Shown: positions 5,977 to 39,800 of the stretch, one piece after another
How the letters are laid out: every line of letters begins with the position of its first letter
Numbering within the stretch: the stretch's first letter is position 1
Assembly (NCBI RefSeq): GCF_963675165.1
Contig: NC_087385.1
Coordinates: 4,946,412-5,010,411 of the forward strand
DNA length: 64,000 nt
Direction of reading: 5' to 3'
Source: Halichondria panicea
Taxonomy: Eukaryota; Porifera; Demospongiae; Suberitida; Halichondriidae
Translations under genes and position numbers: made by a program
The notes under the pieces: generated by a model
The model's database searches: none
Told to the model about the DNA's origin: nothing
The model's input: the letters and a program-made list of their open reading frames with translations, nothing else

Positions 5977-6651
5977 ATGACTGAAATGGAGACCAAGCTT
6001 CCCATGTATCAACAAGGTGTCTATCAAGAAGCCTCACCCACTGCCCCGGCCGGATCATATCAGCCATATCAGTCGAACGCTCAGCAGCTAGAGGTACAAC
6101 ACCATGACGAGAGAAACGATGATGACAACAATCCGCAGTCCAAGAATGACTCCGACATAATACTTCCAATAGACCCAGGAGATGTCCCACAACAAAAATA
6201 CCTCAGTGTAAGCCATAGCACTGCATGCGATTTCAGATACCTATACCATCTACTTATTACTCACTATACACCATGCACACACACGCAGCTTGAGTTTGAC
6301 GCGGCCTTCCACGAGCATAAGAAGACCAGTTTGGTGAAGCCAATGCATGATATCCTTGGAATTGTCTACAAATGGACGAAGCTCATCACTTATCACGTCT
6401 TTGTGATTATCATTGGGATTCCACTAATGATAGTCTGGGCTCTGGTAAATGGCATAACGGCATTCACCTACTCGTGGCTTTGGAGTCCTGCTATGCGTAT
6501 CACTATCTTCTGGATTGCAGCTACACTACCTCTGGTTACCATGCCACTGGTGACCATCTTTAGGCCTTTGACAGATGTGGCAGCTCGCTGCTTCAGTCAG
6601 ATCCGTGTAAAAGTAGCCCTCGATGGAAAAGGATTTGTTCAAAATGTCTAA
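5977..6651 (+). CDS. Caveolin-like protein, copy 1 (197 aa, two exons)
   Basis: Exons are 5977-6207 and 6289-6651, joined in phase 0 (AGT|GTAAGC, then CAG|CTTGAG). The acidic, disordered N-terminal 77 residues precede a caveolin-type core. Residues 112-170 are almost continuously hydrophobic and include GIPLMIVW (120-127), then WSPAMR (141-147), and end with FRPLTDVAARCFSQIRVK (168-185). Human caveolin-1 has the same order: a GIPMALIW turn, a W-P-K segment, then DPLFEAVGKIFSNVRI. By family knowledge this would be an oligomeric inner-leaflet membrane scaffold. The strict caveolin signature FEDVIAEP is not kept. The only cysteine in this copy is C178. It is the only cluster copy on the plus strand besides copy 9. 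The leader and exon 1 resemble copy 4 while the intron resembles copy 7. Family call fairly strong; membrane role inferred. Confidence 0.75.
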   Translation: MTEMETKLPMYQQGVYQEASPTAPAGSYQPYQSNAQQLEVQHHDERNDDDNNPQSKNDSDIILPIDPGDVPQQKYLSVSHSTACDFRYLYHLLITHYTPCTHTQLEFDAAFHEHKKTSLVKPMHDILGIVYKWTKLITYHVFVIIIGIPLMIVWALVNGITAFTYSWLWSPAMRITIFWIAATLPLVTMPLVTIFRPLTDVAARCFSQIRVKVALDGKGFVQNV

Positions 6652-6864
6652 CGAGGAATTTCACTGCCGTAATATATAATCAATGGTACTGTACACTTAG
6701 CTTAGAATTTTATGTGATTGCCACAATCCCTTCCTGTATCTAAATATGAGGAGCTATTTTGATCTGAATGCATGTGTATAGATCTATATAGCTCTCTGTA
6801 CTAATTATACCTATAGTATATAGAATTCCGAATTAATCCGTGTGCATGGTGGTGCAGCTGATAG

Positions 6865-7067
6865 ACAACAAAATTCATTGTTAGTGCACAATTAATACAT
6901 GTGATGTCGATGAGCTTGATCCAGTAAATTCATTTATCCATCCAATCATGCATGTGATGAACTGCAATGGGTGTGGAATTTTAAAACTATGGTAAGCAAC
7001 AAAATTCATTGTTAGTGCACAATACATGTGATGAGCTCGATCCAGTAAATTCATTATCCATCCAATC
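6865..7067. repeat. Imperfect direct repeat of about 75 bp
   Basis: Two copies (about 6865-6948 and 6996-7067) share CAACAAAATTCATTGTTAG, a block with ACATGTGATG, and CCAGTAAATTCATT. They abut the left end of the transposon at 7068. Otherwise 6652-7067 shows no gene. Confidence 0.7.
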
Positions 7068-8198
7068 TAGCCTCGATCCCAGGCCGAGTTTTCGCTTTTA
7101 TAACGGTTACTCGATCCCAGGCCGAGTTTTCGCTTTTATAACGGTTAGGCGAACAACTGGGCCTGGTACTAGTTGTCTGCGCATGCGTCAGTCGTTCGTC
7201 AGATTCTGACGAATGGATATTCTCGTTCACTTTGGTGACATTTATATTTGTGTACTATCGTGTACTAGAAGTCAGTTCCCGTTTTATCATTATTGGAATC
7301 GATTGGAATGGCTCTTAGCTGAAGCTTCTCTCTTCTCTGAAGCTTATTCTGAAGACTGAACAACAAGGGAAGAGGTATAAAGCTTTGTCAAGCTTGTTAA
7401 GGTCAGATATTTTTGTGTGGGCCCTATGGCCGGCTAGGCTATGCTATCAAGTCTTGTTCATGTTTGGCAAGAATGTAGGTAGACTATAGTTTCATCATTA
7501 ATATGGTGGATCAAGTGAAGAGTGTGAGCTAGAGAACTTGGTGCTGCCATCATCAGCTCGTCGACAATGACACTATAACCGAGAAATTTAATATGTATAG
7601 ATCTACACGTATTTAAAATGTCTACTTCTCTGTACAGGAGCAATGGCTAATATCCAGCTATCCCAACAGTGCTCCTCTTGGCTATACTAACGGACGAGAC
7701 TGGACAGTTTGAGGTAAGGGTTTAACCGTCTTTGGTTTCTTTTAATATTGTCCTATACTCACAGACACAGGACTGGAGTATGACCTGCTCATTCGAGCGT
7801 TGCTGGGTAGCTCAGAGACATCAAGAGAATCTACGTTTTCTCAAGTAATGAGTTACGAGTTGGGGCCTAGAATCAGAGAAGTCCAGCAGCCTGCTAAATC
7901 TTTTTGAAACGTAATTTGAAGGCATTCAATCATCCTGAAGTTGCCCTGGGTCACTGTAATTGTGCTGCAGCACAACTGGCAACTCCCCAGGCCTTTGTGA
8001 AGCAGCTCCCTATGTGCATCTTTTGTGTACTCACTCTGTGCATTTTCTGTGTACAATTTTCTATTATTGATTTATTAAATATTTTTGCCGACCACAAATA
8101 TACAATGAAAATTTGACGCATGCGCAGACAACTAGTACCAGGCCCAGTTGTTCGCCTAACCGTTATAAAAGCGAAAACTCGGCCTGGGATCGAGGCTA
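7068..8198. mobile_element. TAGCCTCG-family DNA transposon, copy a (about 1.13 kb)
   Basis: Long terminal inverted repeats start TAGCCTCGATCCCAGGCCG and run to about GCATGCGTCA. They are shared with copy b (15605-16692), which lies in the opposite orientation. The left repeat carries a tandem duplication of about 37 bp. No transposase frame is recognisable, so it looks non-autonomous. Copy a lacks an evident target duplication, which may mean a rearranged flank. Confidence 0.85.
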
Positions 8199-8835: not shown

Positions 8836-11269
8836 ATGGCCACAGGCACAATTTTAGTGCGCAGGCGCGGTTACGGGGGTGACAACATTACTTTCGCATT
8901 CGCTGCAACTCAAGCAAGCTCTGAGAGACGCTTCTGCTATCTGAATTCAATTCAAAGTCAAATGATGGCTAAAGGCTCAACTCCTGCAATTCTAGGCACG
9001 CTCAACTCACTCTTCGCCATTCCACAAGTGCAGGAGCACCTCAACAGTTCTGGCTCAGTTAGTACTCCCAACAGTTTGGGACCAGCTACCAGCACTACCA
9101 GCAGTACTGCCGTCTCAACAGTTGCTGTTGCAGCTGGTACAGCTAACCCCACTCAACCTTCTCTCCCTTCCACCTTAGGAACGGCTGTTTCCTTGGAAGG
9201 TGAGAGAAATAAATTGTTTTGGTGTTTGTTTTTGGCAAGTGTCAAAAGTTGTGTGCGTACTATAAGTGTTGCTATATATGTGCTTGGCTGAGTGTTGCAA
9301 ATGGAGCTTCTTCTTTTGCACCATTCAGCTCAGTCACTAGCATGGGAGCAAAAAAGCAAGCCCAGCAGGGACAATCCAGCAAACACCACTGCAGGTGTAG
9401 GGTGTTGCAAAAAGAGCTTAGTATTGCACAGCTCAGCTCCAGCCACTAGCAAGTGAGCAAAAAGCAAAAAAACCCAGCATGGGAAAGTCAGCAAAAACAC
9501 CACTGCAGGTGCAGGGTGTTGCAAAAAGAGCTTAGTATTGCACAGCTCATGCAGTTTCAGTCACTAGCAAGTGAGCAAAAAAGCAAACCCAGCTTGGGAA
9601 ATTCAGCAAAAACACCACTGCAGGTGCAGGGTGTTGCAAAAAGAGCTTAGTATTGCACAGCTCAGCTCCAGCCACTAGCAAGTGAGCAAAAAGCAAAAAA
9701 ACCCAGCTTGGGAAATTCAGCAAAAACACCACTGCAGGTGCAGGGTGTTGCAAAAAGAGCTTAGTATTGCACAGCTCAGTTTCAGTCACTAGCAAGTGAG
9801 CAAAAAAAAGCAAACCCGGCTTGGGAAATTCAGCAAAAAACACCACTGCAGGTGCAGGGTGTTGCAAAAAGAGCTTAGTATTGCACAGCTCAGCTCCAGT
9901 CACTAGCAAGTGAGCAAAAAGCAAACACAGCTTGGGAAATTCAGCAAAAACACCATTGCAGGTGTAGGGTGTTGCAAAAGAGCTTAGTATTGCACAGCTC
10001 AGCTCCAGTCACTAGCAAGTGAGCCAAACAGAATGCATTATAATTATTACTGGGCAATTCAGCAAAACACCTCTACATGCAGAGGTGTAGGGTGTTACAA
10101 AAAGAGCTTAGTATTGCACACATGCAGCTCAGCAGTCATGCATGCACTATATATAGCAAGCGAGCAAATAGTATAGCAGTGAGTGTTTCTGGCATTTTCA
10201 GCAAAAAGGCGATCAGAGTATTTGTATACTTCGGCAGTGCAAATAATATACAGCTATAGCTGCATAGGTGGAATCGCAAAATGCATGGAGGATATTGGCA
10301 CTGCAGTCCGCTTTATGTATTAATTCCATTGCAGGCACGATTGCGGGACTAGGGGTGCTACCCCCTTTGCACACAGTCGCATCATTGCTGCCATCCGGTG
10401 CCGGGACACAAGGCATGTGCATCCAACCATCAGTCCCACTCATATCTCAACCAGCTTCAGCAATACCCAATGCATCGACAATATGGCGAGCAGCTGAGGC
10501 TCAGAGTAACTATCTACCCCAACAGTCTATCAGTCACGAGGGATTGGTAGCAAGTTTATACCTCGGTGATGGGGTTGTGCCCGTACCTGAAAAGCTAATG
10601 AAAAAAATATGGTCTTTGGAATACATCGAAATGAACCAGCTACTACCCGAGGCTTGGGTGCAAGATAGCTATTCAGAATCATCGTCACATTGTTGCCACA
10701 ATGCAAGTGCGAGCAAGCCTAAGAAGGGAGTTTCTTCTATATTCTCGTGGATACAGTGCTACAGCACTCTGGTGAGCATACTCGCTCACAAATTCCCGTC
10801 TAAGGTGCCTCAATTGATGGCCTACCAATCCATCATTGTAAGATGCTACACGGATTACGAAGGAGACGGTTGGTTGGCATATGACAGAGCATATCGGCGG
10901 AAAGCGGCATACGAAAAGTGCCTGGACTGGTCGAAGTTAAATGTTGCATTTTATCAATTCTGCCTCGCAGGCAATGCAAAGAGGAACGCGGTTTGCAGAA
11001 TTTGTTTGAGACACGACCACCAGACAGCCGACTGCAATGAAGCAGATAAAAACTACCTGAGGTCAGGGTATCCCACACCCGATGTGGGATTCAGCAGACC
11101 GGTAAATTCAGGGGTGGAGATTTGCAGGCTCTACAATGCAATCGGCGAATCCAAGTGTAAGTATAAAGAATGCAGATTCGCGCATTTATGCAAATTCTGC
11201 AAAAAGCCACATCCAGCCCCAAAGTGCCAAGGATCGGGAAAGACTGCAAAACGTAGTAGGCCATTCTAG
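8836..11269 (+). CDS. Gag-like protein of the retroelement, spliced
   Basis: Exon 1 (8836-9199) starts with ATG and encodes a Ser/Thr-rich segment. It ends in phase 1 at GAAG|GTGAGA. The second exon (from 10335, after TTGCAG) continues in the same frame to the stop at 11269. The long frame upstream of 10335 has no suitable ATG, which supports splicing. The C-terminal half has a zinc knuckle CX2CX4HX4C (CRICLRHDHQTADC), a CX10CX4CX3H finger ending CRFAH and a last CX2CX3HX4C cluster. These are expected for nucleic-acid binding by Gag. The intron of about 1.1 kb is mostly tandem repeats. Splicing is inferred from sequence only. Confidence 0.65.
9330..10175 (+). repeat. Minisatellite of about 7 units (110-118 bp) in the gag intron
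   Basis: Each unit contains GAGCTTAGTATTGCACAGCTC followed by GTCACTAGCAAGTGAGC and CACCACTGCAGGTG. Units start near 9409, 9519, 9631, 9747, 9860, 9973 and 10094, with a decayed one before them. Each unit can pair internally around CACTGCAGGTG. Such tandem arrays are often untranslated control or size-variable regions of retroelements. Confidence 0.9.
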
Positions 11270-11641
11270 AGAGACAAACAAGCAAAAAACTGAGAACTCA
11301 ACGAACTATATTACTATATATACATATCTGAGTGTGCTTAGTCATTAATAATTATTATGCTATAATTATTATTACTCATCTCAGCTGTTTATGCTTATCA
11401 GATTGCTCATGGGCCGCTTGCTTTAAATGCGCATGTGGTGAACAGCATTTTGTATTATTATGTGCATGCAATGTCACATTTGCAGCATGCTTGCAGGAAG
11501 TCTGTATCCATCAAGGTGGCTCTAAATCAGTTGTTCAGTTCATTTATGTCTACCCTTGCGGTATGACCTTGAGAGCATTCAGTAGTGATACTGTTTGTTC
11601 TCACACTTCCTGACAATGGCTTTCTTATTTGCTTGCTGCAG

Positions 11642-13275
11642 GCTATCAATACACAGCTGATTTAGTCGCCCTGGAGCAATTCAGGCAGTCTGAGCATACT
11701 GTTGTGACATCAGCAGAGCTGAGTCGAATTGTCACACCACTAAATGCTGAGGCCTGGGAAGCCTGTTTGCTGAACCATCCGGATAGGTTGTTTGCTTATT
11801 ACATCAGCAATGGTGTTCGATGCGGTTTTCGTTTGGGCTACAATCGAGAGTCTAAGGTAATCTCGGCAAAATCAAACATGATCTCAGCTGCTGCACACCC
11901 CTCAATTGTAGCAGATTATATTGCAAAAGAGCTTGTTAAGGGTCGTACCATTCCTTGGCACTCATTACCGGCTCAAGTCAGTCGATTTGGGGTAATACCG
12001 AAAAAGCATCAGCCAGGCGAATGGCGGTTGATTGTTGATCTCTCAGCACCAGAGGGCAAAAGTGTAAACGACGGTATTCAAAAACAACTTTGCTCGCTGC
12101 AATATATAAAAGTCACTGACGTTGCAGCTCAGGTTTATAAGGCCGGCAAAGGAGCATTAATGGCAAAAATGGATGTTAAAAGTGCGTTTAGAACAATTCC
12201 AGTGCATCCAGATGATCGGCTACTACTCGGCACTTTTTGGGAACGACAATATTACGTGGATACAGTCCTTCCTTTTGGCCTCCGATCGGCTCCCAAGATA
12301 TTCAATGCAGTGGCTGATGCTCTGCAGTGGATCGTGAAGCAAAACGGTGTCACGTACCTTGAGCATTACTTGGATGACTTTATAACAATTGGGGGAGAAG
12401 ATACGGAGGAGTGTGCAGACAATTTGTCAATGCTGCTGCAGATGTGTGCCACTCTGGGCATTCCGGTAGCACCCGAAAAGACAGTCACTCCTACGCCAAT
12501 TATTACATTCTTAGGCATTGAGATAGACTCGATTGCCCAGCAACTTCGCCTCCCGGCAGAGAAAATGGCACGAATATTAAAGATGCTACGTTCGTGGTCT
12601 AGCAAAAAGAATGCAACGAAAAAAGATCTCCAGTCTTTGGCTGGTACACTGGAGGACGCAGCTCGTATCATAAAGCCAGGAAAGGCATTTTTGAGGCGTA
12701 TCTACACGGCTGTAGGGGGTTTATTCAAGCCTCATCATCACGTACGTCTAAACGAGGCAGTTCGATCCGATTTAGCTTGGTGGTTAGCATTTATGGAGAA
12801 ATGGAATGGCATCACCCTGTTCTCTACCTGTTGCACAACAATTCCGTCGGTGATTGTTACGTCGGATGCTTCGGGTTCCTGGGGCTGTGGTGCATATACC
12901 AGGCATCACTGGTTTCAGATCCCATGGGCTCTATATGAAAGTTATGCCGCTGAAAATATCGCAACCAAAGAAATGCTCCCCATTATAGTTGCAGCAGCTT
13001 TGTGGGGTAGTTGTTGGCAAGGGGACAAGGTCCTCTTTCGGTGTGACAATATGGCAGTAGTCGCAGCACTTTCAAAACGGTTTTGCAAGGACAGACAGAT
13101 GATGCATTTGCTCCGTTGTTTGCATTTTTTCGAAGCTTACTACAGGTTCAATCTTATTTCTGAACATATTTGTGGTATCGATAATGATTTAGCTGATGAT
13201 CTGTCACGTGACAATCTCTCTGCTTTCTTACAGAAGTCCAACCTCTCGGCAACAGCGGTATCGGCAATACCTTAG
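11642..13275 (+). CDS. Reverse transcriptase / RNase H of the retroelement (pol)
   Basis: This polymerase copies the element's RNA. Motifs visible are the palm residues MAKMDVKSAFRTIPVHPDD, the YLDD catalytic box (HYLDDFITIGG), then an RNase H domain with TSDASGSWGCG, a later glutamate in ATKEMLPI and FRCDNMAVVAAL. The frame has no ATG near its start. At 11641 a pyrimidine-rich tract ends in GCTGCAG, a good acceptor. A strong donor (AAGT|GTAAGTA) at 11156 in gag joins it in phase. I therefore infer that pol is made as a spliced Gag-Pol fusion that skips the last two Gag zinc fingers and the gag stop. Confidence 0.9.
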
Positions 13276-14287: not shown

Positions 14288-14852
14288 ATCTAAGTCATGT
14301 TTTATTTATTCATTTAATCACACTTATTTTTGTTGGAGGAATGGTACCGTATTCACGGTACGGTGGACTCACGTTGTCTATAATGATTAGATTTACACAA
14401 CTTTGGCATTCCTTATCAAAAAATAGACGTTATTGACCGACTGAGTTAGCTAATGCTTAACATGCTAGCAGTGCGATTCTCAGTCAGTCAGGGTAGTGTG
14501 ACGTTTAACTAGCCTCGAGGCTCAGCCGCTTTAAAATAAGTCGTGACTCGAGGCTAGGCTTTTGTGCCTTGCATGATGTTGTGTATTTGAGTCTAGTGCT
14601 CAGCTTTCCTCCAATACTCTTCAAGCTTAGCCCTAGAGGGCGGGCAATCAAGCTAAACCAGCACATTCAACAGGATGTAGACCGTAGATTAATCCGGACA
14701 CTTCGCATGCTCTATAAAAATCTGTTCCAATTATACAATTTCCAAAATAATTATTTATTGCTGTCCGATAAATTAGAAGATATACGGTATTCATAATTAT
14801 TGTTTAAGACTGTCTCAAAGTATTATTGATTTATACAGAAAAAGAGTCCCTA
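14288..14852. other. 3' flank of retroelement with a short inverted-repeat remnant
   Basis: No gene is seen. At 14510-14556 the ends TAGCCTCGAGG and ACTCGAGGCTA form a 47-bp imperfect palindrome related to the TAGCCTCG transposon family, without a clear target duplication. Near 14766-14793 the stretch AGAAGATATACGGTA recurs at about 36815, at the border of the TMCO3 arm. Confidence 0.5.
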
Positions 14853-15505
14853 TTATACATTTTGAACAAATCCTTTTCCATCGAGGGCTGCTTTCATACG
14901 GATTTGGCTGAGGCAGCGAGCTGCCACATCTATGAAAGGCCTGTAGATAGTCACAAGTGGCATGGTGATCAGGGGTATAATGGCTGCCATCCAGAAAATA
15001 TAGAGACGAAAAACAGGGCTCCAAATCCACGAGTAGAGGAATGCTGTGAAACCATTTAGCAGAGCATAAACTATCATTAGTGGAATACCAATCACAAAGA
15101 CAAAGGCGTGATAGGTGATGAGCTTTGTCCACTTGTAGACAATTTCGGTGATGTCATGCAACGGCTTTGCCAAACTAGTCTTCTTGTGCTCATGGAAGAC
15201 CGCATCAAACTCGAGCTGTGTGTATGTGTATTGAGATAGATGTAGTTGGGAATTTCAGCGTGTATATATGGTTATACAGGTGGTCCAAAGCTTACATTGA
15301 GATATTTTTGTTGTGGGACATCTCCTGGGTCTATTGGAAGTATTATGTCTGAGTCATTCTCGGACTGCTGATTGTTGTCATCATTATTTCCCTCGCCACG
15401 GTTTTCTAGCTGCTGAACATTTCCCAGATATGGGTGGTATCCAGGGGCAGTGGGTGAGGCCACTTGATGGACACCTTGTTGATATACAGGAGGCCTGGTC
15501 TCCAT
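14853..15505 (-). CDS. Caveolin-like protein, copy 2 (190 aa, two exons)
   Basis: Exons on the minus strand are 15505-15296 (70 codons) and 15215-14853 (120 codons plus stop), with a phase-0 junction AAT|GTAAGC. The core keeps GIPLMIVYALLNG, WSPVFRLYIFW and YRPFIDVAARCLSQIRMK, so it is the same caveolin-like fold as copy 1 but a distinct subtype (IRMKAAL, LAKPLHD). It is nearly identical to copy 6 (27231-27885), which marks the equivalent position in the second duplicated block. The frame is intact. The upstream DNA on the right carries transposon copy b. Confidence 0.75.
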
Positions 15506-15604
15506 TTCGTGCTTAATGCTTGATGCTAGTAGATGCAGCCCTAGTTCTAATTGTCATCACATGATTTGGTGGGCAATGAAGCTATATAAATACATGTTCC
15601 TTGT

Positions 15605-16701: not shown

Positions 16702-18074
16702 GCATTAAATAGCCATACATAAACAATGAATGTTTTTATTGTCTTCCCACTACTTTCTCTTACTAATGCATGGCCGATGTATAACTTATTACTGCTCTGC
16801 ACATTACAGATGGAGTTCGATCTGATACGTACCTCTACATTACTCTAAAATCTACCATTAATCTTTTCACCTCACTTGACATACAGAGCTTGTTCAGTTA
16901 CTATGGAAACTGAACTATTTTGCCACTATTCGGTGGAACCAATTATGGCTATGTGTAATGGTAGCTACTATATATATACGAGTAGGGGAATGCCGTTATG
17001 CCATTGACATGTAAAAGCGGTCCTCCGATGGAAAAGGGAAGGATTTGTTCTAATGAGCCATATAGATAGAAGGCACGGTAAGGAGCTAGTAAGCAAGCCC
17101 TTAGTCTCGAATTCCACGGTTCTCTTGTAAGCGTGGGAGGGAGAGAACCTTCTCTCCCTCCCACGCTTACAAGAGAAATTCGAGCAAGCCGGCCCTGTGG
17201 TTTGGCTACAGGTACAAGGTGTTTATTAATTTTTACATACAGCACATGCAGGCGGTATATTGTAGGTATATTGTATGGTCTTGCAACTCGCTGAACTTTT
17301 TAACATTAACCGGCTCTAGATCTAGTATTTTCTGATTGTGTGCATGTCTGGAAAAGGTAGAAGGATATACCAGCACGGAATGGCTGTACCCATAACCTAG
17401 CTGACTTCATTCAGAGAGAAAGTGAATGTACAGAGGATGTCTACCATGATGTACAGCCGGCCAATGCATGATTGTTTTGTGACATCATAAAATTATGCAT
17501 TTAAATGGGCGTGTTCCTGACATTTTTCGGCGCGCAATTAAGCGCGCACTATTCCAGCCACTGGATCCACCTCTGTTGAGTACGTGCTACACTAACAAAC
17601 CTCCATAAAACGGAAACCATTGGGAATAGCCTTTTTTGTCCGTTTTAGAGAGTTGTTAGTTGGGAGGTTTCAATTACAATTTTAATACATGTATGAGTCG
17701 ATCCTATAAGTGTATCTTGGAGCTATATAGTAACGGAGTAGAAAGGTGGCCGTTCCTGAGAGGTTGCTTTACATTCAGTGTAGTCTAGTTTCAATCCGGA
17801 CTTGAGCTGAGGTTGGTTGCTCTTCAGAGTTATAGACGTTATGGAGGTTCCACTGTAGCAATTGCATGCTAACTAGAAACTAGCAACTACGAGTTGAGTA
17901 GAAGTCAGGGCCATCGACTCAGTTGTAACTTCGAAAGAAAAGTAATGCAAAACTCATATAAAAGCTACATACTACAAAAAACTCATTATAATTGAGAGGA
18001 TCAGGAAGGGAATTGTGGCAATCACATAACAAGATGCGTGTACAGTATACCGTTAGTAACATTAAAAGTCCTCA
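16702..18074. repeat. Caveolin-cluster spacer unit with hairpin and relic
   Basis: No intact gene. It contains an inverted chimeric caveolin relic (about 16975-17055). Next is a hairpin at about 17110-17172 whose arms read CTCTTGTAAGCGTGGGAGGG and its complement. A block with AACCTCCATAAAACGGAAACC and its partial inverse follows. The same series recurs at 19540-20890, 27990-28720 plus 30290-30700, and 33270-34430, so this is one member of a dispersed cluster unit. Confidence 0.75.
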
Positions 18075-18753
18075 TTATACATTTTGAACAAATCCTTTTC
18101 CATCGAGGGCTGCTTTTACATAGATCTGACTGAGGCAGCGAGCTGCCACATCTGTCAAAGGCCTGAAGATGGTCACCAGTGGCATGGTAACCAGAGGTAG
18201 TGTAGCTGCAATCCAGAAGATAGTGATACGCATAGCAGGACTCCAAAGCCACGAGTAGGTGAATGCCGTTATGCCATTTACCAGAGCCCAGACTATCATT
18301 AGTGGAATCCCAATGATAATCACAAAGACGTGATAAGTGATGAGCTTCGTCCATTTGTAGACAATTCCGAGGATATTGTGCATTGGCTTCACCAAACTGG
18401 TCTTCTTGTGCTCGTGGAAGGCCGCATCAAACTCAAGCTGCATGTGTGTATCCATGCATGGTGAGTAGCTAATAACAAGAATAACATGCATGCACCATAA
18501 TATAGGTATCGGGGATTGCAGTGCTATGGCTTACACTGAGGTATTTTTGTTGTGGGACATCTCCTGGGTCAATTGGAAGTATTATGTCTGAGTCATTCTT
18601 GGACTGCTGATTGTTGTCATCATCATTTTTCTCGCCATGGTGTTGTACCTCTAGCTGCTCAATGTCTGCCTCATATGGCTGATATGATCCGGGGGCAGTG
18701 GGTAAGGTTTCTCGATGGACACCTTGTTGATATAGGGGAAGCTTGGTCTCCAT
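18075..18753 (-). CDS. Caveolin-like protein, copy 3 (193 aa, two exons)
   Basis: Exons are 18753-18535 (73 codons) and 18437-18075 (120 codons plus stop), phase 0. The N-terminus begins METKLPLYQQ; the upstream ATG used in copies 1 and 4 (MTEMETK or MTETETK) has become CTG. The core has GIPLMIVWALVNG, WSPAMRITIFW and CLSQIYVK. Tyrosine replaces the usual arginine of SQIRVK, and asparagine replaces aspartate in KPMHN. It pairs with copy 7 by exon 1 sequence. The frame is intact, so it is probably expressed if its promoter survives. Confidence 0.74.
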
Positions 18754-19076: not shown

Positions 19077-19195
19077 ACATTCCCCAGATATGGGTGGTAT
19101 ATCCAGGGTTAGGGTTAGGGTTAGGGGTTAGGGTTGGCAGTGGGTGAGGCCACTTGATGGACACCTTGTTGATATACAGGAGGCCTGGTCTCCAT
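19077..19195 (-). pseudogene. Relic caveolin-like exon 1 interrupted by telomeric repeats
   Basis: Minus-strand similarity to exon 1 of copy 2 runs from CCCAGATATGGGTGG to the METRPP start (ATG at 19195). No matching exon 2 lies downstream; the sequence runs straight into the 5' flank of copy 3. The exon is split by about 30 bp of TTAGGG-type repeat (19106-19135). A second relic with the same structure but no telomeric repeat is at 31850. Confidence 0.8.
19106..19135 (+). repeat. Interstitial telomeric repeat, about five TTAGGG units
   Basis: The sequence is (TTAGGG)-like, with one TTAGGGG variant, inside the relic exon. In intact copies the same point reads TATCCAGGGGCAGTGG. The repeat is therefore an insertion rather than ancestral sequence. 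Confidence 0.9.
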
Positions 19196-21112: not shown

Positions 21113-21764
21113 TTATACATTTTGAACAAATCCTTTTCCATCGAGGGCTGCTTTTACACGGATCTGACTGAGGCAGCGAGCTGCCACATCTGTCAAAGGC
21201 CTGAAGATGGTCACCAGTGGCATGGTAACCAGAGGTAGTGTAGCTGCAATCCAGAAGATAGTGATACGCATAGCAGGACTCCAAAGCCACGAATAGGTGA
21301 ATGCTGTTATGCCATTTACCAGAGCCCAGACTATCATTAATGGAATCCCAATGATAATCACAAAGACGTGATAAGTGATGAGCTTCGTCCATTTGTAGAC
21401 AATTCCGAGGATATCATGCATTGGCTTCACCAAACTGGTCTTCTTGTGCTCGTGGAAGGTCGCGTCAAACTCAAGCTGTGTGTGTATAAGAACAAGATAA
21501 AAACACCAAAATAATATAATTATAGGTATAGGTATGGCTTACACTGAGGTATTTTTGTTGTGGGACATCTCCTGGGTCTATTGGAAGTATTATGTCGGAG
21601 TCATTCTTGGACTGCGGATTGTTGTCATCATCGTTTCTCTCGTCATGGTGTTGTACCTCTAGCTGCTGAGCGTTTGGCTGGTATGATCCGGCCGGGGCAG
21701 TGGGTGAGGCTTCTTGATGGACATCTTGTTGATACATGGGAAGCTTGGTCTCCGTTTCAGTCAT
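21113..21764 (-). CDS. Caveolin-like protein, copy 4 (194 aa, two exons)
   Basis: Exons are 21764-21543 (74 codons) and 21475-21113 (120 codons plus stop), phase 0. It begins MTETETKLPMYQQ, most like copy 1, and its 5' flank also matches copy 1 in reverse. The caveolin-like core is unchanged (GIPLMIVWALVNG, WSPAMR, CLSQIRVKAAL). Its 67-bp intron is almost the same as that of copy 8, although exon 1 of copy 8 belongs to the copy 3/7 type. The frame is open. Confidence 0.75.
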
Positions 21765-26073: not shown

Positions 26074-26711
26074 TTAGACGTTCTGCACGGCATTCTGCAC
26101 AAATCCTTTTCCATCGACGCCTGCTTTGCAACGAATCTTGCTGAGGCAGCGAGCTGCCACATCTATCAAAGGCCTGAAGATGGTCACCAGTGGCATGGTA
26201 ATCAGGGGTAGTACAGCTGCAATCCAGAAGATAGTGATACGGAGAGTAGGGCTCCAAATCCACGAGTAGATGAATGCCATTATGCCATTTAGCAGAGCCC
26301 AGATTATCATTAGTGGAATACCAATCACAAAGACAAAGATATGATAGGTGATGATCTTTATCCACTTGTAGATTATTCCGAGAACTCCATGCACTGGCTT
26401 GATCAAACTAGTATTCTTGTGCTCGTGGAAGGTTGCAGCAAATTCAAGCTGCAAATAATGTGTTAGAAATGTAACGTGTCGCATCTACTTAATGCAAACT
26501 TACATTGAGGTATCGTTGGTGGTACATCTCTTGGTGACTTATGATCTACTACATCCAATTCTGACTCATCATCTCTGATACTGTTAGTGTCGTGGTGCTG
26601 GACCTCAGGCACCTCAGGCACTTCTGTCTCCTTTGTAGTCATGGGAATCGTAATCTCGTAGTTGTGAGGCTGGGGATCAGGGTAGACGGCAGACTCAGAT
26701 TCAGTAGTCAT
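26074..26711 (-). pseudogene. Caveolin-like copy 5, frameshifted at the end of exon 1
   Basis: Exon-like segments are 26711-26504 and 26448-26074. Exon 1 is 208 nt, one base over a whole codon number: it reads GTACCACCAACGATACC where copy 9 has GTACCATCACGATACC. Splicing at the normal donor would shift exon 2 out of frame and reach a stop at once. Exon 2 alone is intact and encodes the copy 5/9 subtype with the longer tail GKGFVQNAVQNV. It lies antisense in the last intron of the TMCO3 duplicate. A shifted donor could in principle rescue it. Confidence 0.8.
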
Positions 26712-27230
26712 GGTTGATTTTGATAGGGTGCTATAGAGTGCTAGTTTATCTAGCTTACCTTGCTTTTATAGTCGTGGAGCTATCTTGTGTAGGAGGGCTC
26801 AGAGTTATGCTCTTGTTACCAATTATCATAGTCGCTGCTTGCATGTGTAATTACTGGCTATGGTTAGTTCCTCTGTTGGGGATGCACCGAAGCCTGTGGT
26901 GGGTAGACTCACTGCACTATATAACACTTTGACCATAATTATTCTAATAAAGTTTTCAATCACGGTTTAAATGCAGTACTATTCCCATGCAGGTGTACTT
27001 GGTAATACTGAGCACAGCGACTGTGAGTCTCCTCATGGCTCCCCTCCTGTGGCATCTCTTCCGATCCAGACTGAGGAGAGTAAGTCCTCTAATGCTGATA
27101 CGCTCTCTGTTCAGACTGCCTAGAGCTATACTCTCTAAAATCAGACATTCATCATCTAGATCTGTATAGCTTATGGTATTCATAATTATTGTTAAGACTG
27201 TCTCAAAGTATTACAGAAAAAGAGTCCCTA

Positions 27231-27885
27231 TTATACATTTTGAACAAATCCTTTTCCATCGAGGGCTGCTTTCATACGGATTTGGCTGAGGCAGCGAGCT
27301 GTCACATCTACGAAAGGCCTGTAGATAGTCACAAGTGGCATGGTGATCAGGGGTATAATGGCTGCCATCCAGAAAATATAGAGACGAAAAACAGGGCTCC
27401 AAATCCACGAGTAGAGGAATGCCATTATGCCATTTAGCAGAGCATAAACTATCATTAGTGGAATACCAATCACAAAGACAAAGGCGTGATAGGTGATGAG
27501 CTTCGTCCACTTGTAGACAATTTCGGTGATGTCATGCAACGGCTTTGCCAAACTTGTCTTCTTGTGCTCATGGAAGACCGCATCAAACTCAAGCTGTGTG
27601 TATGTGTATTGAGATAGATGTAGTTGGGAATTTCAGCGTGTATATATATGGTTATACAGGTGGTCCAAAGCTTACATTGAGATATTTTTGTTGTGGGACA
27701 TCTCCTGGGTCTATTGGAAGTATTATGTCTGAGTTATTCTCGGACTGCTGATTGTTGTCATCATTATTTCTCTCGCCACGGTTTTCTAGCTGCTGAACAT
27801 TTCCCAGATATGGGTGGTATCCAGGGGCAGTGGGTGAGGCCACTTGATGGACACCTTGTTGATATAAAGGAGGCCTGGTCTCCAT
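27231..27885 (-). CDS. Caveolin-like protein, copy 6 (190 aa, two exons)
   Basis: Exons are 27885-27676 (70 codons) and 27593-27231 (120 codons plus stop), phase 0. It starts METRPPLYQQ and is the close partner of copy 2, with the same intron sequence (TTGGGAATTTCAGCG inside). The core contains GIPLMIVYALLNG, WSPVFRLYIFW and YRPFVDVTARCLSQIRMK. It begins only about 60 bp after the TMCO3 duplicate stop at 27169, so the two 3' ends converge. The frame is open. An in-frame ATG 48 nt upstream (27933) could extend the product by 16 residues. Confidence 0.75.
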
Positions 27886-27989
27886 TTTGTGCTGATACTT
27901 GATGCTAGTAGGATGCAGCCCTAGTTCTAGCATTCATCACATGATTTGGTGGGCAATGAAGCTATATAAATGCATTACATGTACATGTA

Positions 27990-30861: not shown

Positions 30862-31525
30862 TTATACATTTTGAACAAATCCTTTTCCATCGAGGGCTGC
30901 TTTTACACGGATCTGACTGAGGCAGCGAGCTGCCACATCTGTCAAAGGCCTGAAGATGGTCACCAGTGGCATGGTAACCAGAGGTAGTGTAGCTGCAATC
31001 CAGAAGATAGTGATACGCATAGCAGGACTCCAAAGCCACGAGTAGGTGAATGCCGTTATGCCATTTACCAGAGCCCAGACTATCATTAGTGGAATCCCAA
31101 TGATAATCACAAAGACGTGATAAGTGATGAGCTTCGTCCATTTGTAGACAATTCCGAGGATATCATGCATTGGCTTCACCAAACTGGTCTTCTTATGCTC
31201 GTGGAAGGCCGCGTCAAACTCAAGCTGCGTGTGTGTGCATGGTGTATAGTGAGTAATAAGTAGATGGTATAGGTATCTGAAATCGCATGCAGTGCTATGG
31301 CTTACACTGAGGTATTTTTTGTTGTGGGACATCTCCTGGGTCAATTGGAAGTATTATGTCTGAGTCGTTCTTGGACTGCTGATTGCTGTCATCATCATTT
31401 TTCTCGCCATGGTGTTGTACCTCTAGCTGCTCAATGTCCGCCTCATATGGCTGATATGATCCGGTGGCAGTGGGTAAGGTTTCTCGATGGACACCTTGTT
31501 GATATAGGGGAAGCTTGGTCTCCAT
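30862..31525 (-). pseudogene. Caveolin-like copy 7, frameshifted at an A-run
   Basis: Segments are 31525-31306 and 31224-30862. Exon 1 has 220 nt, one more than a multiple of three: the run before the donor has six A where copies 1, 3 and 4 have five (QQKYLS becomes QQKIPQ). Normal splicing would put exon 2 out of frame. Exon 2 itself is intact and close to copy 1. Exon 1 pairs with copy 3 (METKLPLYQQGVHRETLPTA), while the intron is nearly that of copy 1. A homopolymer sequencing error is a real alternative to a mutation. Confidence 0.75.
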
Positions 31526-31849
31526 TTCAGTCAGATCTATTATAGGTGCTTGATGCTAGAAGAAATGGTGTTGATTGGCTACAAACTATGCAGCCTGCAG
31601 AATGACCAAAGTAGCATAGTTTTATAACCATTGCAGTTCATCACATGATTAATGAATTTACTGAAGCTCATCACATGTGTATCATTATTGTACCAACAAT
31701 GAATTTTGTTTTACCTCAGAAGTAATATATACGTGGCCCCTGAGTGCTATATACTCATATTCAAACATGTATAGTTTCTAGTTTGCATGCAGTTGCTATA
31801 GTATATAGAGTTGCATGGCAGTTGGCAGTTTGCAGTTGGTACTTCACAT

Positions 31850-32894
31850 TCCCCAGATATGGGTGGTATCCATGCAGGGGCAGTGGGTGAGGCCACTTGA
31901 TGGACACCTTGTTGATATCTCTTTCCTTGGCAATCTGTTGTAGAAATTACAACAACGGTAACGAATCGTTATGATGAATTAGATGAAGTTGTATGTGAGC
32001 TCCTCCCTGACAAACAAACTGTAGTCTAGGTAACGGCCTTATCAGTCAAGTAGGCTAAAAATCTGTGTCCTTTGATGTAAGCTTTGATGTCTCTTTGTGC
32101 ATAAAAAAAAAAAAAAAAAAAAAGAAACCTTTGACTAGCTAGGAAGAGTAGCAGCAGTAGTAGTAGGAAGAGTAGCAGTAGTAGTAGCAGTGCAAGCAGG
32201 ACTCACTGACTAGACTAGATTAAAAAGTTGGTGGAACGAATAACTGACCGTTTGGACGTCACCTGGCTGCCAGACTTTCATCTGGACTCTTCCCCCTGAG
32301 TAGCTGGCCTTTCTCTAAGCCACAAAACTGAGCAAGAAGCTGAAGAAGCAGCTAGACAGAGACATGTACCTAGCCTTGAGAATTGGGAGGCGTGGCTCAA
32401 CTAGTTAGCCCAGCCCAGAGGAATTGTTACCGTGGGTACTGAACAACCGTAGAAGTAGGGCTACCCCTGGCTTTACTGAATTAACTAGCTGTGTCTGCTG
32501 TCTAGTTGGACCAGATTTAGCTAGATAATGGGGTAGAGAATAGTTGAGCGGTGCTGTGTGTAGCTTGAACTGTACTGGCTGGCAAGAATCTAGTAAGCAC
32601 CCTATGCACTGATAACTCGTCAGAATGGAGGGTATGTTCTAGGGATCTGGACAGCTGTACATCCAAAGGAGCCAGGGAGTGCCAATCATCTTCTCCCAGT
32701 CTCTGACACGCTAAACAAAACGAGCTAGAACTGGGAGTCCCAGCTAGAATTGCTAGCCGGATCTAGACTAATAGAATGACATGGAGGCGTGGTGAGGCCG
32801 GATCCACACTAATTGATCGACCTAAAGACGCTCCTGTTCCAGACTTTCACGAATGGTAAGGAAAGGGTTATACAGGAGGCGGCCTGGTCTCCAT
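31850..32894 (-). pseudogene. Relic caveolin-like exon 1 split by a 950-bp insertion
   Basis: Minus-strand exon 1 similarity (ATG at 32894) is broken between codons that read GTTGATATACAGG in intact copies. Equivalent to the relic at 19077, with the same absence of exon 2, which supports a block duplication that included the relic. Confidence 0.85.
31919..32868. mobile_element. 950-bp insertion with TAT flanks in the relic exon
   Basis: Ends CTCTTTCCTTGGCAA and (inverted) ACCCTTTCCTTACCA resemble each other, and TAT occurs on each side. It contains a run of about 21 A (from 32102) and a stretch of AGTAGCAGTAGTAG repeats. No open frame of note. Class uncertain. Confidence 0.7.
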
Positions 32895-32942
32895 TTCGTG
32901 CTTAATGCTTGATGCTAGTAGATGCAGCCCTAGTTCTAATTG

Positions 32943-34629
32943 TCATCACATGATTTGGTGGGCAATATGAATATCTAAATACATGTTCCTTGTGCATTTA
33001 ACATAAACAATGAATGTTTTTATTGTCTTCCCACTACTTTCTCTTACTATACAATTAATGAATGGCCGATGTATATAACTTATTACTGCTCTGCACATTA
33101 CAAGTGGAGTTCGATCTGATACGTACCTCTATACATTACTGTAGAATCTACCATGCTATAAATCTACCATTAATCTTTTCACCTCACTTGAAATACAGAG
33201 CTTGTTACTACGGAAACTAAACTATTTTGACCACTATTCGGTGGGACCAATTATGGCTATGTGTAATGGTAGCTACTATATATATATACGAGTAGGGGAA
33301 TGCCATTATGCTATTGACATGTAAAAGCGGTCCTCCGATGGAAAAGGGAAGGATTTGTTCTAATGAGCCATATAGATAGAAGGGTACGGTAAGGAGCTAG
33401 TAAGTAAGCCCTTAGTCTCGAATTCCACGGTTCTCTTGTAAGCGTGGGAGGGAGAGAACCTTCTCTCCCTCCCACGCTTACAAGAGCAGGCCGGCCCTGT
33501 GGTTTGGCTACACATATACAAGGTGTAAAATAGATTATTAATCTTTACAGGCGGTATTATGGTATCACTATGATATTGCAACTCGCTGAACTTTTTAACA
33601 TTAACATCTAGATCTGATTGTGTGCATGTCTGGAAATGGTAGAAGGATATACCAGCACCGAATGGCTGTACCCATAACCTAGCTGACTTCATTCAGAGAG
33701 AAAGTGAATGTACAGAGGATGATTAATTGATTATTAATTTATACTTTCTACGGTAGTTCATGCTTGTAGTACAAGCCTCTACACCTCTTTTTTTTAGTGA
33801 CCCATAATACCATCGTTCCCCAAAATTTGCATTTAGTACATCGTTACAATTAAATTAAAATTTATTTAAGTGACATAATTGGAAAAAATAACCTGATTTT
33901 CATAATCCACCATATCTTAATTGTATTATGGCGTAAATTTTACTTTTTTCAACGATTATCTCCAGAGAAATTTATAATTAAGCTTAGGTGACTCATTATA
34001 CCAACATTTACCTTATGCATTTAAATGGGCGTGTTTTTCGGTGCGCAATTAAGCGTGCCCTATATATCCCAGCCACTGGATCCACCTCTGTTGAGTACGT
34101 GCTACACTAACAAACCTCCATAAAACGGAAACCATTGGGGAACAGCCTTTTTTGTCCGTTTTAGAGAGTTGTTAGTTGTTTTAGAGAGTTGTTAGTTGAG
34201 AGGTTTCGATTACAATTTTAATACATGTATGAGTCGATCCTATAAGTGTATCTTGGAGCTATATAGTAACGGAGTAGAAAGGTGGCCGTTCCTGAGAGGT
34301 TGCTTTACATTGTAGTCTAGTTTCAATCCGGACTTGAGCTGAGGTTGGTTGCTCTTCAGAGTTATAGACGTTATGGGTTGACCGTTCCACTGTAGCAATT
34401 GCATGCTAACTAGAAACTAGCAACTACGAGTCGAGTAGAAGTCAGGGCCATCGACTCAGTTGTAACTTCGAAAGAAATGTGAAATGAAAAGTAATGCAAA
34501 ACTCATATAAAAGCTACATACTACAAAAAACTCATTATAATTGAGAGGATACAGGAAGGGAATTGTGGCAATCACATAACAAGATGCGTGTACAGTGTAC
34601 TGTACCGTTAGTAACATTAAAAGTCCTCA
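32943..34629. repeat. Fourth caveolin-cluster spacer unit
   Basis: Relic (33288-33365), hairpin (about 33430-33487), the AT-rich insertion in short form and the AACCTCCATAAAACG block, in the same order as at 19230-21112. A local tandem duplication of GTTTTAGAGAGTTGTTAGTT lies near 34160-34198. No gene is supported. Confidence 0.72.
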
Positions 34630-35275
34630 TTATACATTTTGAACAAATCCTTTTCCATCGAGGGCTGCTTTTACACGGATCTGACTGAGGCAGCGAGCTG
34701 CCACATCTGTCAAAGGCCTGAAGATGGTCACCAGTGGCATGGTAACCAGAGGTAGTGTAGCTGCAATCCAGAAGATAGTGATACGCATAGCAGGACTCCA
34801 AAGCCACGAGTAGGTGAATGCCGTTATGCCATTTACCAGAGCCCAGACTATCATTAGTGGAATCCCAATGATAAACACAAAGACGTGATAAGTGATGAGC
34901 TTCGTCCATTTGTAGACAATTCCGAGGATATCATGCATTGGCTTCACCAAACTGGTCTTCTTGTGCTCATGGAAGGCCGCGTCAAACTCAAGCTGTGTGT
35001 GTATAATAACAAGATAAAAACACCAAAATAATATAATTATAGGTATAGGTATGGCTTACACTGAGGTATTTTTGTTGTGGGACATCTCCTGTGTCTATTG
35101 GAAGTATTATGTCTGAGTCATTCTTGGACTGCTGATTGTTATCATCATGTTTCTCGCCATGGTGTTGTACCTCTACCTGCTCAATGCCCGCCTCATGTGG
35201 CTGATATGATCCGGGGGCAGTGGGTAAGGTTTCTCGATGGACACCTTGTGGATATAGAGGAAGATTGGTCTCCAT
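34630..35275 (-). CDS. Caveolin-like protein, copy 8 (192 aa, two exons)
   Basis: Exons are 35275-35060 (72 codons) and 34992-34630 (120 codons plus stop), phase 0. It starts METNLPLYPQGVHRETLP, the copy 3/7 type, yet its intron matches copy 4 almost base for base. The caveolin-like core is intact (VFIIGIPLMIVWALVNG, WSPAMR, CLSQIRVKAAL). The leader is followed upstream by a 42-bp perfect palindrome (35289-35330) and an AT run, which may affect its promoter. Confidence 0.75.
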
Positions 35276-35288
35276 TTCAGTCAGATCT

Positions 35289-36018: not shown

Positions 36019-36547
36019 AAGTGCAAAAAACATTTTGTGAAAAAATGGGGAAGAGTAGGGTTGGAAGAGCATGCGCACTGAAGTAACAAAAAGTTCGAAA
36101 ACAAGATTGTGGGTTGGTATAGTCTTGCATGCTCCAACTAGTTGGGGGTGGGGTGCAATCTTTAACAGTTGGGTCCAGCACTACTTCGAGTTTTTGGTGG
36201 GCAGGGCTCATCTGTAGAGTCTCAAATTTAATATTATTTTACACTTGTGTTTCGGTGCTGTGGCAGAAAGAAAAGTTAATTCAAAAAAGCCTCATTCATT
36301 CTTATGTAGAAACACATGCAATGGTAAAATAGGTGATTGAGCGTCTCAAATAAAGAAAGAGGTGTAACGATCGAGAAGTAGTGCTGGACCCAACTGTTAA
36401 AGATTGCACCCCACCCCCAACTAGTTGGAGCATGCAAGACTATACCAACCCACAATCTTGTTTTCGAACTTTTTGTTACTTCAGTGCGCATGCTCTTCCA
36501 ACCCTACTCTTCCCCATTTTTTCACAAAATGTTTTTTTGCACTTGTT
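36019..36547. repeat. Inverted repeat with arms of about 170 bp
   Basis: Left arm (36019-36190) and right arm (36372-36547) are near-exact inverses, including GGAAGAGCATGCGCACTGAAG. The loop of about 180 bp is unique. A diverged partial copy lies at 35785-35850. Probably a fold-back transposon. Confidence 0.85.
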
Positions 36548-36832
36548 AGAACAAGCAAGCAGCTGCATGCGAGCTAGCTAAGTTTAATAGAACAGGGTAC
36601 GACTGAATAGTTGCACTAGCTATCTAAAACTAGCTACTCAAAGCTATCTAACTGCAGCACTCTAAGTCTTACTTGCCGTCAATGAATGATAACTCAATTT
36701 TTTAAGGTATTGTCCAGTTTAGAACAAATGTAATATTAAAGTACTGGAGTGTCCGTTGTATTAGAACAACGAAAATTGCCCAAAAGAGTGTCCGGGGTAA
36801 TTAGAAGTGTCCGATAAATTAGAAGATATACG
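36548..36832. other. Intergenic DNA beside TMCO3 arm B
   Basis: Contains short reiterated motifs (GTGTCCG with TTAGAA) and ends with AGAAGATATACGGTA, also found beside caveolin-like copy 2 (about 14775). It may be a decayed transposon end marking the duplication junction. No gene. Confidence 0.45.
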
Positions 36833-39800
36833 GTACCATAAGCTATACAGATCTAGATGATGAATGTCTGATTTTAGAGAGTATAGTTCTAGGCAGTCTG
36901 AACAGAGAGCGTATCAGCATTAGAGGACTTACTCTCCTCAGTCTGGATCGGAAGAGATGCCACAGGAGGGGAGCCATGAGGAGACTCACAGTCGCTGTGC
37001 TCAGTATTACCAAGTACACCTGCATGGGAATAGTACTGCATTTAAACCGTGATTGAAAGCTTTATTAGAATAATTATGATCAAAGTGTTGTATAGTGCAG
37101 TGAGTCCACCCACCACAGGCTTCGGTGCATCCCCAACAGAGGAACTAACCATAGCCAGTAATTACACATGTAAGCAGCGACTATGATAATTGGTAACAAG
37201 AGCATAACTCTGAGCCCTCCTACACAAGATAGCTCCACGACTATAAAAGCAAGGTAAGCTAGATAAACTAGCACTCTATAGCACCCTATCAAAATCAACC
37301 ATGACTACTGAATCTGAGCCTGCCCTCTACCCTGATCCCCAGCCTCACAACTACGAGATTTCGATTCCCATGACTACAAAGGAGACAGAAGTGTCTGAGG
37401 TGCCTGAGGTGCCTGAGGTCCAGCACCACGACACTAACAGTATCAGAGATGATGAGTCAGAATTGGATGTAGTAGATCATAAGTCACCAGGAGATGTACC
37501 ATCACGATACCTCAATGTAAGTTTGCATTAAGTAGATGCGACACGTTACATTTCTAACACATTATTTGCAGCTTGAATTTACTGCAACCTTCCACGAGCA
37601 CAAGAAAACTAGTTTGATCAAGCCAGTGCATGCAGTTCTCGGAATAATCTACAAGTGGATAAAGATCATCACCTATCATATCTTTGTCTTTGTGATTGGT
37701 ATTCCACTAATGATAATCTGGGCTCTGCTAAATGGCATAATGGCATTCATCTACTCGTGGATTTGGAGCCCTACTCTCCGTATCACTATCTTCTGGATTG
37801 CAGCTATACTACCCCTGGTTACCATGCCACTGGTGACCATCTTCAGGCCTTTGATAGATGTGGCAGCTCGCTGCCTCAGCAAGATTCGTTGCAAAGCAGG
37901 CGTCGATGGAAAAGGATTTGTGCAGAATGCCGTGCAGAACGTCTAAGAATTACTCCAACTGACAATTAAAAAACTAACAATTAGGGTAGGTATATACATG
38001 TAGTATACTAGAATTAAGCTAGCAAAGAATCCTTTTTATAGCCATATATACATGTATACTGTTTATAGGTATTATACTTTCATATGTGAATGCTGTTGCA
38101 ATGCTAGTGTGTGCAATGTGGTTAGGTACTACTATAAGGCACTGTAACTTACCTCTCTGGATACGATACCGAGTCTCCGCCCCCTGCTCGCCAGAACGAA
38201 GGAGAATTCACTCATCTGAGCCAGACTGAGGGAGAGAGTCCACGTACTGGGCTGACAGGGACCGAGGAACAGCCCCAGGACCCCCACTGTCAGCGAGAAC
38301 TGTGTGTGTGTGTGTGTGCGTGTGTGTAGGGTAAGCAGTGGCGTAGCCAGGATTTTGGGAAGGGAAGGGCTCAAATCAGTTGAGCAGCCAGACCAGGCGC
38401 TGAACAACATGAAATTTTACCAAGGTCATCACTTATCCTCAGCAGTCAGCATGCGTATTAGATGGCCCTGCCCACATATATATTGAATGACATCATTCTA
38501 GTAACTATAGGCATGCAAAATAGATCGATAGATCAGTGATTCAAGCTAAATTGGAGTTGATGGAGCACAAAAAGGGGGGGGGGGGCTCTAGCCCCGTCAG
38601 CCTCCCTCTGCCTACGCCACTGATAAGTGGCTATTAATGTTCTCATGGTGAAAGTATTTGAGGGCATTTTAGGGCATTATAATTTCTGTAGTTAAACATA
38701 CATTTACATGTGTGGGTCTTGAATGGTACATGTATTTTAAACATTCAGGTTGAGCACATTAATTGGTTAAGCATCTACTTAGTTGCGTGGGGTGTGCCCA
38801 CATCTCACAACTCCTCGGGGCTTACTTTGAGGAATATAATGAACAGTGTGACAGCACAAACAGTGATGAACTCCGATCTCAAGAATGTTGGGAATACATG
38901 GAATCCTATAGAAAACGAAATTTTAAGTCAATTCAGTATTAGTAATGCAGAGAGCCATGGTAAGCAGAAGGTGATAATGCCTAAATCAATACAACGGCAA
39001 CACCAAGAACAACGAAACAGCTTTCAGGGTAAACAGACAACACAGAAATGCATGTATTAATTACACTGACCTAGAGATGCGAAAAAAAACACTGCAAAAA
39101 GGTCTCTAAGTGGCTTCACCAACTTTCTGACCTACAAAAACAACACAGACAGCATCACATTACACCCAAAGTAACTATGTGCGTAGACTACGACCGGTAT
39201 GTCTGTATTATTATAGTGACAAGAGAGCTATGCTATGAAACCTTACCCTGTCAGCACTGGCTCCCTGAGAGCTCACGGCCACACCAGCTAGGAAACCACC
39301 CAACTCCAGCGAGGCTCCCAACATCTCTGCAATCTAGTGGAGGGATAATATCACATAATTATATCATAAAGAAATGTACTTCAAATCCACACTACAACAG
39401 TAGCTACACAACTGCACAGTATGAACCATACCGTATTTACTTGATTAAACGCCCACTGTAAAAGCTCTGTCTTTGTCAATAAACACCTATCTTAAATAAT
39501 TACCCATGTGTGGGGCATGGCACTGTGGGTGGAGCTGAATTAGCACGTGGAACCAGTTGCAAGCATGGTAGCATAGAATAATAGATACTATTTATGATGG
39601 CAGAGAGAGAGATACCGACACAGAGGGAGAAACATCACTCCTACGACTTAAATTTAAGCTGAGAGCTGTGGCAGCAGCCAAAAAGAGCATAATAACTGTT
39701 GCTGTGCAAGAGTTTGGAGTAGACTTAACAATAAACGCCCGTTTCGAACAAACGCTCATCTCGTTTAAACGCCCCCTCTACAGACTTCGATATGAAATAA

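Follow-up and report, generated by a model that had tools for sequence, protein, structure and literature searches.

A tandem array of nine putative caveolin genes with a patchwork history in the genome of the demosponge Halichondria panicea

Why does a sponge genome carry nine similar two-exon genes side by side, what kind of protein do they encode, and how did they come about? We address this question for a window of 64,000 nucleotides (the whole stretch of DNA analysed here) of Halichondria panicea (assembly GCF_963675165.1, contig NC_087385.1, positions 4,946,412 to 5,010,411 of the forward strand), in which the nine units span positions 5977-37946, from the ATG of copy 1 (5977) to the stop codon of copy 9 (37946). 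A first-pass annotation, made by a model from the letters and their open reading frames, had proposed a caveolin-like gene cluster. With a probability of roughly 0.88, we read the locus as a tandem array of nine demosponge caveolin genes, most likely of the 'atypical' class, which arose by segmental duplication together with gene conversion or unequal exchange, and the products of which would form discs, judging from their homology to known caveolins.

All nine units share the same architecture. Their exons were delimited by a conserved GTAAG donor and a CAG acceptor, which are present in nine of nine units and enclose introns of 55-97 nt; copies 1 and 9 lie on the forward strand and copies 2-8 on the reverse strand. 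Exon 2 (363 or 375 nt) is open in every copy. The length of exon 1 is divisible by three in seven copies, while in copies 5 (208 nt) and 7 (220 nt) the frame is off by one base near the end of this exon. The coordinates, splice signals and frames agree with the earlier count of nine units within 32 kb, seven of them open. In the seven open copies the intron falls between codons (phase 0), presumably at the same place as the intron of human CAV3, two residues before the signature F. Splicing of exon 1 to exon 2 is predicted from the splice signals and the frame; in copy 1 the open frame also continues across the intron (a 226-aa frame). The intact genes most likely encode proteins of 190-197 residues, the first 70-77 of which, corresponding to exon 1 in the open copies, are acidic as described in the first pass (9-17 D/E versus 3-5 K/R).

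We accepted family membership because of the Pfam scores, the profile matches in the PDB and an identity to human CAV1 above that of shuffled sequences. The Pfam Caveolin family (PF01146) matches the exon-2 proteins of all nine copies at 40.9-46 bits (cut-off, 25 bits), and the E-values, which lie between 2.5e-10 and 6.5e-12 in nine of nine, argue against a chance match. No other Pfam family was found in these proteins at E<=0.001. When a profile of the nine exon-2 proteins was compared with 177635 distinct PDB sequences, only three scored at E<=1, all of them caveolins: 9DN0 (1.6e-4), human CAV1 7SC0 (2.2e-4) and 9DN1 (7.7e-4), of which the first derives from a sea urchin and the last from the choanoflagellate S. 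rosetta (PMC12330381). The ungapped identity to human CAV1 over 86 residues, run for three copies, was 18 for copy 9, 18 for copy 1 and 16 for copy 6, and was reached by 0, 1 and 5 of 20000 shuffles, respectively. The alignment to the solved caveolins is collinear over the hook, the scaffolding helix and the spoke region, our models being too weak for a comparison of shapes. The profile search thus bears out the caveolin identity proposed in the first pass, and the nine genes are, as far as sequence evidence goes, caveolins.

Genome-wide searches returned at least ten places, namely the nine array copies and one on contig C4. The tenth frame (L010:3554-3964) is divergent and cysteine-rich, scores 26.8-27.2 bits against Pfam Caveolin (the same cut-off of 25) and is a probable divergent caveolin; a PDB search with this frame gave 5 sequences at E<=10, none of them a caveolin. 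Its match to adiponectin (E 4.6e-8) was set aside, being the sum over three weak stretches in one three-repeat chain (each i-Evalue 1.8-1.9). Scans of other genome and viral contig collections produced 109 and 151 pattern matches, respectively, none of which was confirmed as a relative, as expected for an animal gene. For the cavin partner (PF15237), no match was found in the sponge genome, and the control genomes gave no match either.

The exon-2 sequences divide the copies into three groups, {1,3,4,7,8}, {2,6} and {5,9}. Self-comparison revealed duplicated blocks in both direct and inverted orientation (Table 1), those around the genes being 92-99% identical. These blocks, together with the genome-wide searches, support the tandem expansion of caveolin genes that the first pass had suggested. 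Within {1,3,4,7,8}, the copies form a mosaic, in which the upstream DNA and exon 1 group otherwise than the intron. In the upstream DNA (ungapped columns), copies 1 and 4 are 97% and copies 3 and 7 100% identical, and the remaining pairs 51-65%. Exon 1 is 98% identical in both of these pairs, with copy 8 closest to copies 3 and 7 (95% and 94%). In the intron, copies 1 and 7 are identical over 81 nt and copies 4 and 8 are 99% identical over 67 nt, the remaining pairs being at 58-82%. Every pair is 97-99% identical in exon 2, and downstream copy 1 is at 57-59% to the other four, which are mutually 93-98% identical. The mosaic shows most clearly in copies 1 and 7, which have identical introns although their upstream DNA and first exons belong to different groups.

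The informative sites of this group (n=91) can be sorted by region. Upstream (n=50), 33 sites join copies 3 and 7, and 14 join copies 1 and 4. Exon 1 has 14 sites for {1,4}/{3,7} and 0 for {1,7}/{4,8}, whereas the intron has 0 and 21, respectively; exon 2 contributes a single site, for {1,7}, and the downstream DNA five sites spread over four groupings. The observed clustering, measured as the agreement of neighbouring sites, was reached by none of 10000 shuffles. Fisher's test on these sites gave 4e-10, a value which overstates the evidence because neighbouring intron sites may be single indel-linked events and because the alignment between groups is poor in the upstream DNA, the intron and the downstream DNA. 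The mosaic is accounted for if copies underwent gene conversion or unequal exchange, with a breakpoint close to where exon 1 ends; the differences in exon 2 are too few to assign a partner region.

The two exons were also compared by pairwise dN/dS (the ratio of nonsynonymous to synonymous rates; Nei-Gojobori method), for which exon 2 was taken from nine copies and exon 1 from the seven open copies. Values of 0.07-0.47 were obtained in 35 of the 36 exon-2 pairs, the remaining pair, 5/9, having 0 synonymous and 5 other changes. For exon 1, the range was 0.41-1.03 in 20 of 21 pairs, with 0 synonymous and 3 other changes in pair 2/6. Given these ranges, exon 2 is held by purifying selection, and exon 1 weakly or hardly.

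Could the proteins belong to another two-helix membrane family that happens to score with the caveolin profile, and not be functional caveolins? AlphaFold2 monomer runs on the nine exon-2 proteins, with copy 9 or copy 6 as the first row, yielded models of low confidence (pLDDT 69.0 and 69.8; pTM 0.29 and 0.45), both consisting of long helices that are interrupted between residues 61 and 67, and the proteins carry one stretch of 19 residues whose mean Kyte-Doolittle value is 2.2-2.5, all of which would suit such a family. Poor models are, however, what would be expected from nine near-identical rows, which make a weak alignment for AlphaFold2, and the solved caveolins, in their aligned parts, peak similarly in hydropathy (1.99-2.44). 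As the Pfam cut-off is passed in nine of nine with no further family at the threshold used, and the PDB profile search led to caveolins only, we regard this explanation as very improbable. In a Foldseek search against the PDB, the first model (copy 9) had no match at E<=10; nine matches of the second (copy 6), at E 5-9.6, were rejected, all being unrelated proteins. An origin of the array in the assembly itself, through collapsed or duplicated haplotypes, could be suspected from several blocks that are 97-99% identical, but there is hardly any room for it when all copies lie on one 7.05 Mb contig with distinct flanks, orientations and introns. The locus may instead be a decaying repeat cluster, in which only one or two genes are of importance, the others being recent duplicates about to be lost. 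The two copies out of frame, the exon fragments at six places (Table 1) the recent pair 5/9 (exon 2) and the pair 2/6 (exon 1), both free of synonymous changes, are compatible with decay, and with duplicated blocks at 92-99% identity the copies are perhaps too young to tell. Against this stand the open exon 2 of all nine copies and the between-group dN/dS of this exon, which is 0.25-0.47 (copies 1 versus 2, Fisher P = 1.6e-6 on rounded counts), so that we consider decay unlikely, though deserving of serious attention.

Several observations weigh against our own reading of the locus as an array of nine disc-forming caveolin genes. Identity to the solved caveolins is low, the first exons of two copies break the frame, and three of the 50 upstream informative sites support {4,8} and not the two main groups. 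The dN/dS values are blurred, as the copies exchange sequence and exon 2 of the out-of-frame copies 5 and 7 was included. Neither model had a Foldseek match in the PDB at E<=0.001 and the fold gains no structural support, although models of such low confidence speak neither for nor against the disc. The one Amphimedon caveolin viewed by electron microscopy formed less regular and less stable complexes, and for one of five Amphimedon proteins a disc was predicted only jointly with another caveolin, according to PMC12330381; a regular disc is therefore uncertain for sponge members. By the same token, mixed discs are thinkable in H. panicea, since the Amphimedon protein is predicted to join a disc only with another; a mixed disc of two Amphimedon caveolins is given as a prediction in the legend of Fig. 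4 of that paper.

If the locus is the caveolin array that we favour, it would have grown by segmental duplication, both direct and inverted, and gene conversion or unequal exchange would have kept its copies partly alike. Each intact gene, once expressed, would provide a monotopic protein inserted in the cytoplasmic leaflet, as homologous caveolins are, with the acidic and variable N-terminal tail from exon 1 on the cytoplasmic face, and the hook, scaffolding helix, spoke region and short C-terminus from exon 2. The oligomeric amphipathic disc is an 11-mer in three solved caveolins, and by homology the protomers encoded here may pack into such a disc, which would bend the membrane or buffer its tension. 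Exon 2 would then be the conserved disc module; exon 1 and the upstream DNA would be the variable part, recombined with respect to the following intron in copies 1, 3, 4, 7 and 8. The copies would differ chiefly in the tail and probably also in the promoter. Guessing from the differing upstream DNA only, different promoters might let the copies serve different cells. A further and rather improbable reading is a modular system in which interchangeable promoter-plus-tail cassettes are recombined by gene conversion against a conserved disc exon, with the phase-0 intron as the joint. Mixed discs could then arise that present a different cytoplasmic face in each cell type, as a combinatorial coat needing neither cavins nor the vertebrate palmitoylation sites.

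Table 1. Caveolin units, exon fragments and duplicated blocks in the window.
Feature	Position	Strand	Basis
Copy 1 exon 1, N-terminal variable region, 77 codons	5977..6207	+	ATG, open frame, GTAAG donor
Copy 1 exon 2, putative caveolin domain	6289..6651	+	PF01146, 43.3 bits
Copy 2 exon 1	15296..15505	-	splice signals and frame
Copy 2 exon 2, putative caveolin domain	14853..15215	-	PF01146, 44.4 bits
Copy 3 exon 1	18535..18753	-	splice signals and frame
Copy 3 exon 2, putative caveolin domain	18075..18437	-	PF01146, 40.9 bits
Copy 4 exon 1	21543..21764	-	splice signals and frame
Copy 4 exon 2, putative caveolin domain	21113..21475	-	PF01146, 42.9 bits
Copy 5 exon 1, out of frame by one base near its end	26504..26711	-	208 nt, mod 3 = 1
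Copy 5 exon 2, putative caveolin domain	26074..26448	-	PF01146, 43.3 bits
Copy 6 exon 1	27676..27885	-	splice signals and frame
Copy 6 exon 2, putative caveolin domain	27231..27593	-	PF01146, 46 bits
Copy 7 exon 1, out of frame by one base near its end	31306..31525	-	220 nt, mod 3 = 1
Copy 7 exon 2, putative caveolin domain	30862..31224	-	PF01146, 42.7 bits
Copy 8 exon 1	35060..35275	-	splice signals and frame
Copy 8 exon 2, putative caveolin domain	34630..34992	-	PF01146, 41.8 bits
Copy 9 exon 1	37301..37516	+	splice signals and frame
Copy 9 exon 2, putative caveolin domain	37572..37946	+	PF01146, 42.8 bits
Caveolin relic, exon-1 fragment	19077..19195	-	60 nt at 100% to copy 2 exon 1, and a 32-nt piece at 91%
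Caveolin relic, exon-1 fragment	31846..31918	-	73 nt, 93% to copy 2 exon 1
Short exon-2-like fragments	16978..17008; also 19565-19595, 28247-28278, 33288-33315	- (16978..17008)	28-32 nt, 87.5-93.5% identity
Inverted duplicate	24446-27178 / 36834-39574		96.8% identity
Duplicate	17508-19100 / 30316-31869		92.2% identity
Duplicate	20234-21763 / 33720-35283		92.1% identity
Duplicate	14783-15595 / 27172-27975		95.5% identity

Further weak tblastn matches to one of the two exons (2784-2873, 31184-31393, 41810-41857, 49902-50039 and 57562-57657), with E 1e-4 to 0.05 and 22-62% identity, were dropped as unproven; blastn confirmed none of them at E<=1e-3. A retroelement lies between copies 1 and 2 (10268-14287). 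Its reverse transcriptase frame (PF00078, 69.1 bits) is followed by matches to the phage-integrase SAM-like N-terminal domain, a domain order that we take to be that of tyrosine-recombinase (DIRS/Ngaro-type) elements, and its first frame (10268-11266) has no Pfam match. A stretch of 1089 nt recurs in inverted orientation at 99.1% identity (7110-8198 and 15605-16688), the two enclosing both the retroelement and caveolin copy 2. The window also contains a long (CA)n-type microsatellite (1394-2022) and a TNF-family domain (PF00229, 37.3 bits; 56467-56988), the latter ~19 kb from the array. Elsewhere in the genome, a silicatein motif pattern matched once (C2:659062; reversed control, 0), and two separate silicatein-like pieces had silicatein alpha (6ZQ3) as the best PDB match, in one case ahead of cathepsins and in the other alone at E<=1e-8; to our knowledge, silicateins occur in siliceous sponges only, so that this gene points to a siliceous demosponge as host. 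A nuclear mitochondrial COX1 fragment of 64 residues (L009:1501-1692, on contig C1) includes two TGA codons, which read as tryptophan in code 4.

The first pass had held the cluster to be undescribed. This stands for the nine-gene array and its mosaicism, of which we found no report among the matches listed in the open-access literature, most subscription papers and supplements lying outside it, but not for sponge caveolins as a kind, which were described in 2025 as 'atypical caveolins', with five of them in Amphimedon queenslandica (PMC12330381). The main text of that paper uses 'cluster' four times and 'tandem' once, none of them on a sponge caveolin cluster, and the Tethya genome paper (PMC11347921) does not use 'caveolin' in its main text. 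What appears new is the array with its patchwork history. Its conserved disc exon and exchanged tails offer natural variants with which the role of the N-terminal tail, as well as the question of whether mixed discs form, may be probed. Sponges diverged close to the root of the animal tree; we know of no role for caveolins in them.

How far do these proteins resemble caveolins known from other organisms? The GIPxxxxW turn, taken in the first pass to be kept throughout, is present in seven of nine copies, and copies 2 and 6 read GIPLMIVY. At the place of FEDVIAEP, the copies have EFDAAFHEH, EFDAVFHEH, EFDATFHEH, EFAATFHEH or EFTATFHEH. The strict signature is indeed missing from all nine, but it does not set them apart, since the sea urchin 9DN0 (FADTFKES) and S. 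rosetta 9DN1 (FDDSFPEV) also lack it. Cysteines are as few as had been stated: of the seven open copies, six have one and copy 9 has two. In the exon-2 proteins they are located at position 101 and, in copies 5 and 9, additionally at 107. Such scarcity is not atypical either, as cysteines make up 1/104 of the aligned residues in the sea urchin protein and 0/115 in that of the choanoflagellate, versus 3/86 in the human one. At the places of human C133, C143 and C156 (exon-2 positions 68, 78 and 91; ungapped register), which are palmitoylation sites, none of the copies carries a cysteine; this result bears on part of the change in lipidation suggested in the first pass. The acidic N-terminus, put forward as a novelty, is new in sequence but not in kind, the N-terminal variable region being one of seven general caveolin elements in PMC12330381. 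All three features (signature, N-terminus and cysteine number) are thus mostly ordinary among non-vertebrate caveolins. As to class, neither the strict FEDVIAEP nor the cysteines opposite the human sites, both sought as marks of Type II caveolins, occur in any copy, and the pin motif is assigned to Type II caveolins only (PMC12330381); the array is found in a sponge, as the atypical (sponge) class implies. It seems that the signature and the vertebrate cysteines can be lost while selection continues to act on the disc exon.

Among known systems, the Amphimedon atypical caveolins (e.g. A0A1X7UHP5) are alike in being Pfam-annotated sponge caveolins with several genes per genome, and their identity to human CAV1 is 11-19% (PMC12330381), similarly low as in the array copies. 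Compared by description only, the two sponges differ in that Amphimedon has five genes, while H. panicea has nine in one array and one caveolin-like frame elsewhere. The sea-urchin Type I caveolin 9DN0 and the S. rosetta caveolin 9DN1 share with the array copies a divergent stretch at FEDVIAEP and the scarcity of cysteines, and the ending S-x-I-x-V of 9DN1 is common to five of nine copies, with a subsequent (D/E)GK in nine of nine; their discs have been solved, whereas those of the array are predicted, and at low identity. Human CAV1 (7SC0) keeps GIPxxxxW in common with the array in the profile match, but the array copies lack FEDVIAEP and cysteines at the human C133, C143 and C156 positions. 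The human CAV3 gene has two exons according to PMC2805812, as do the nine array copies.

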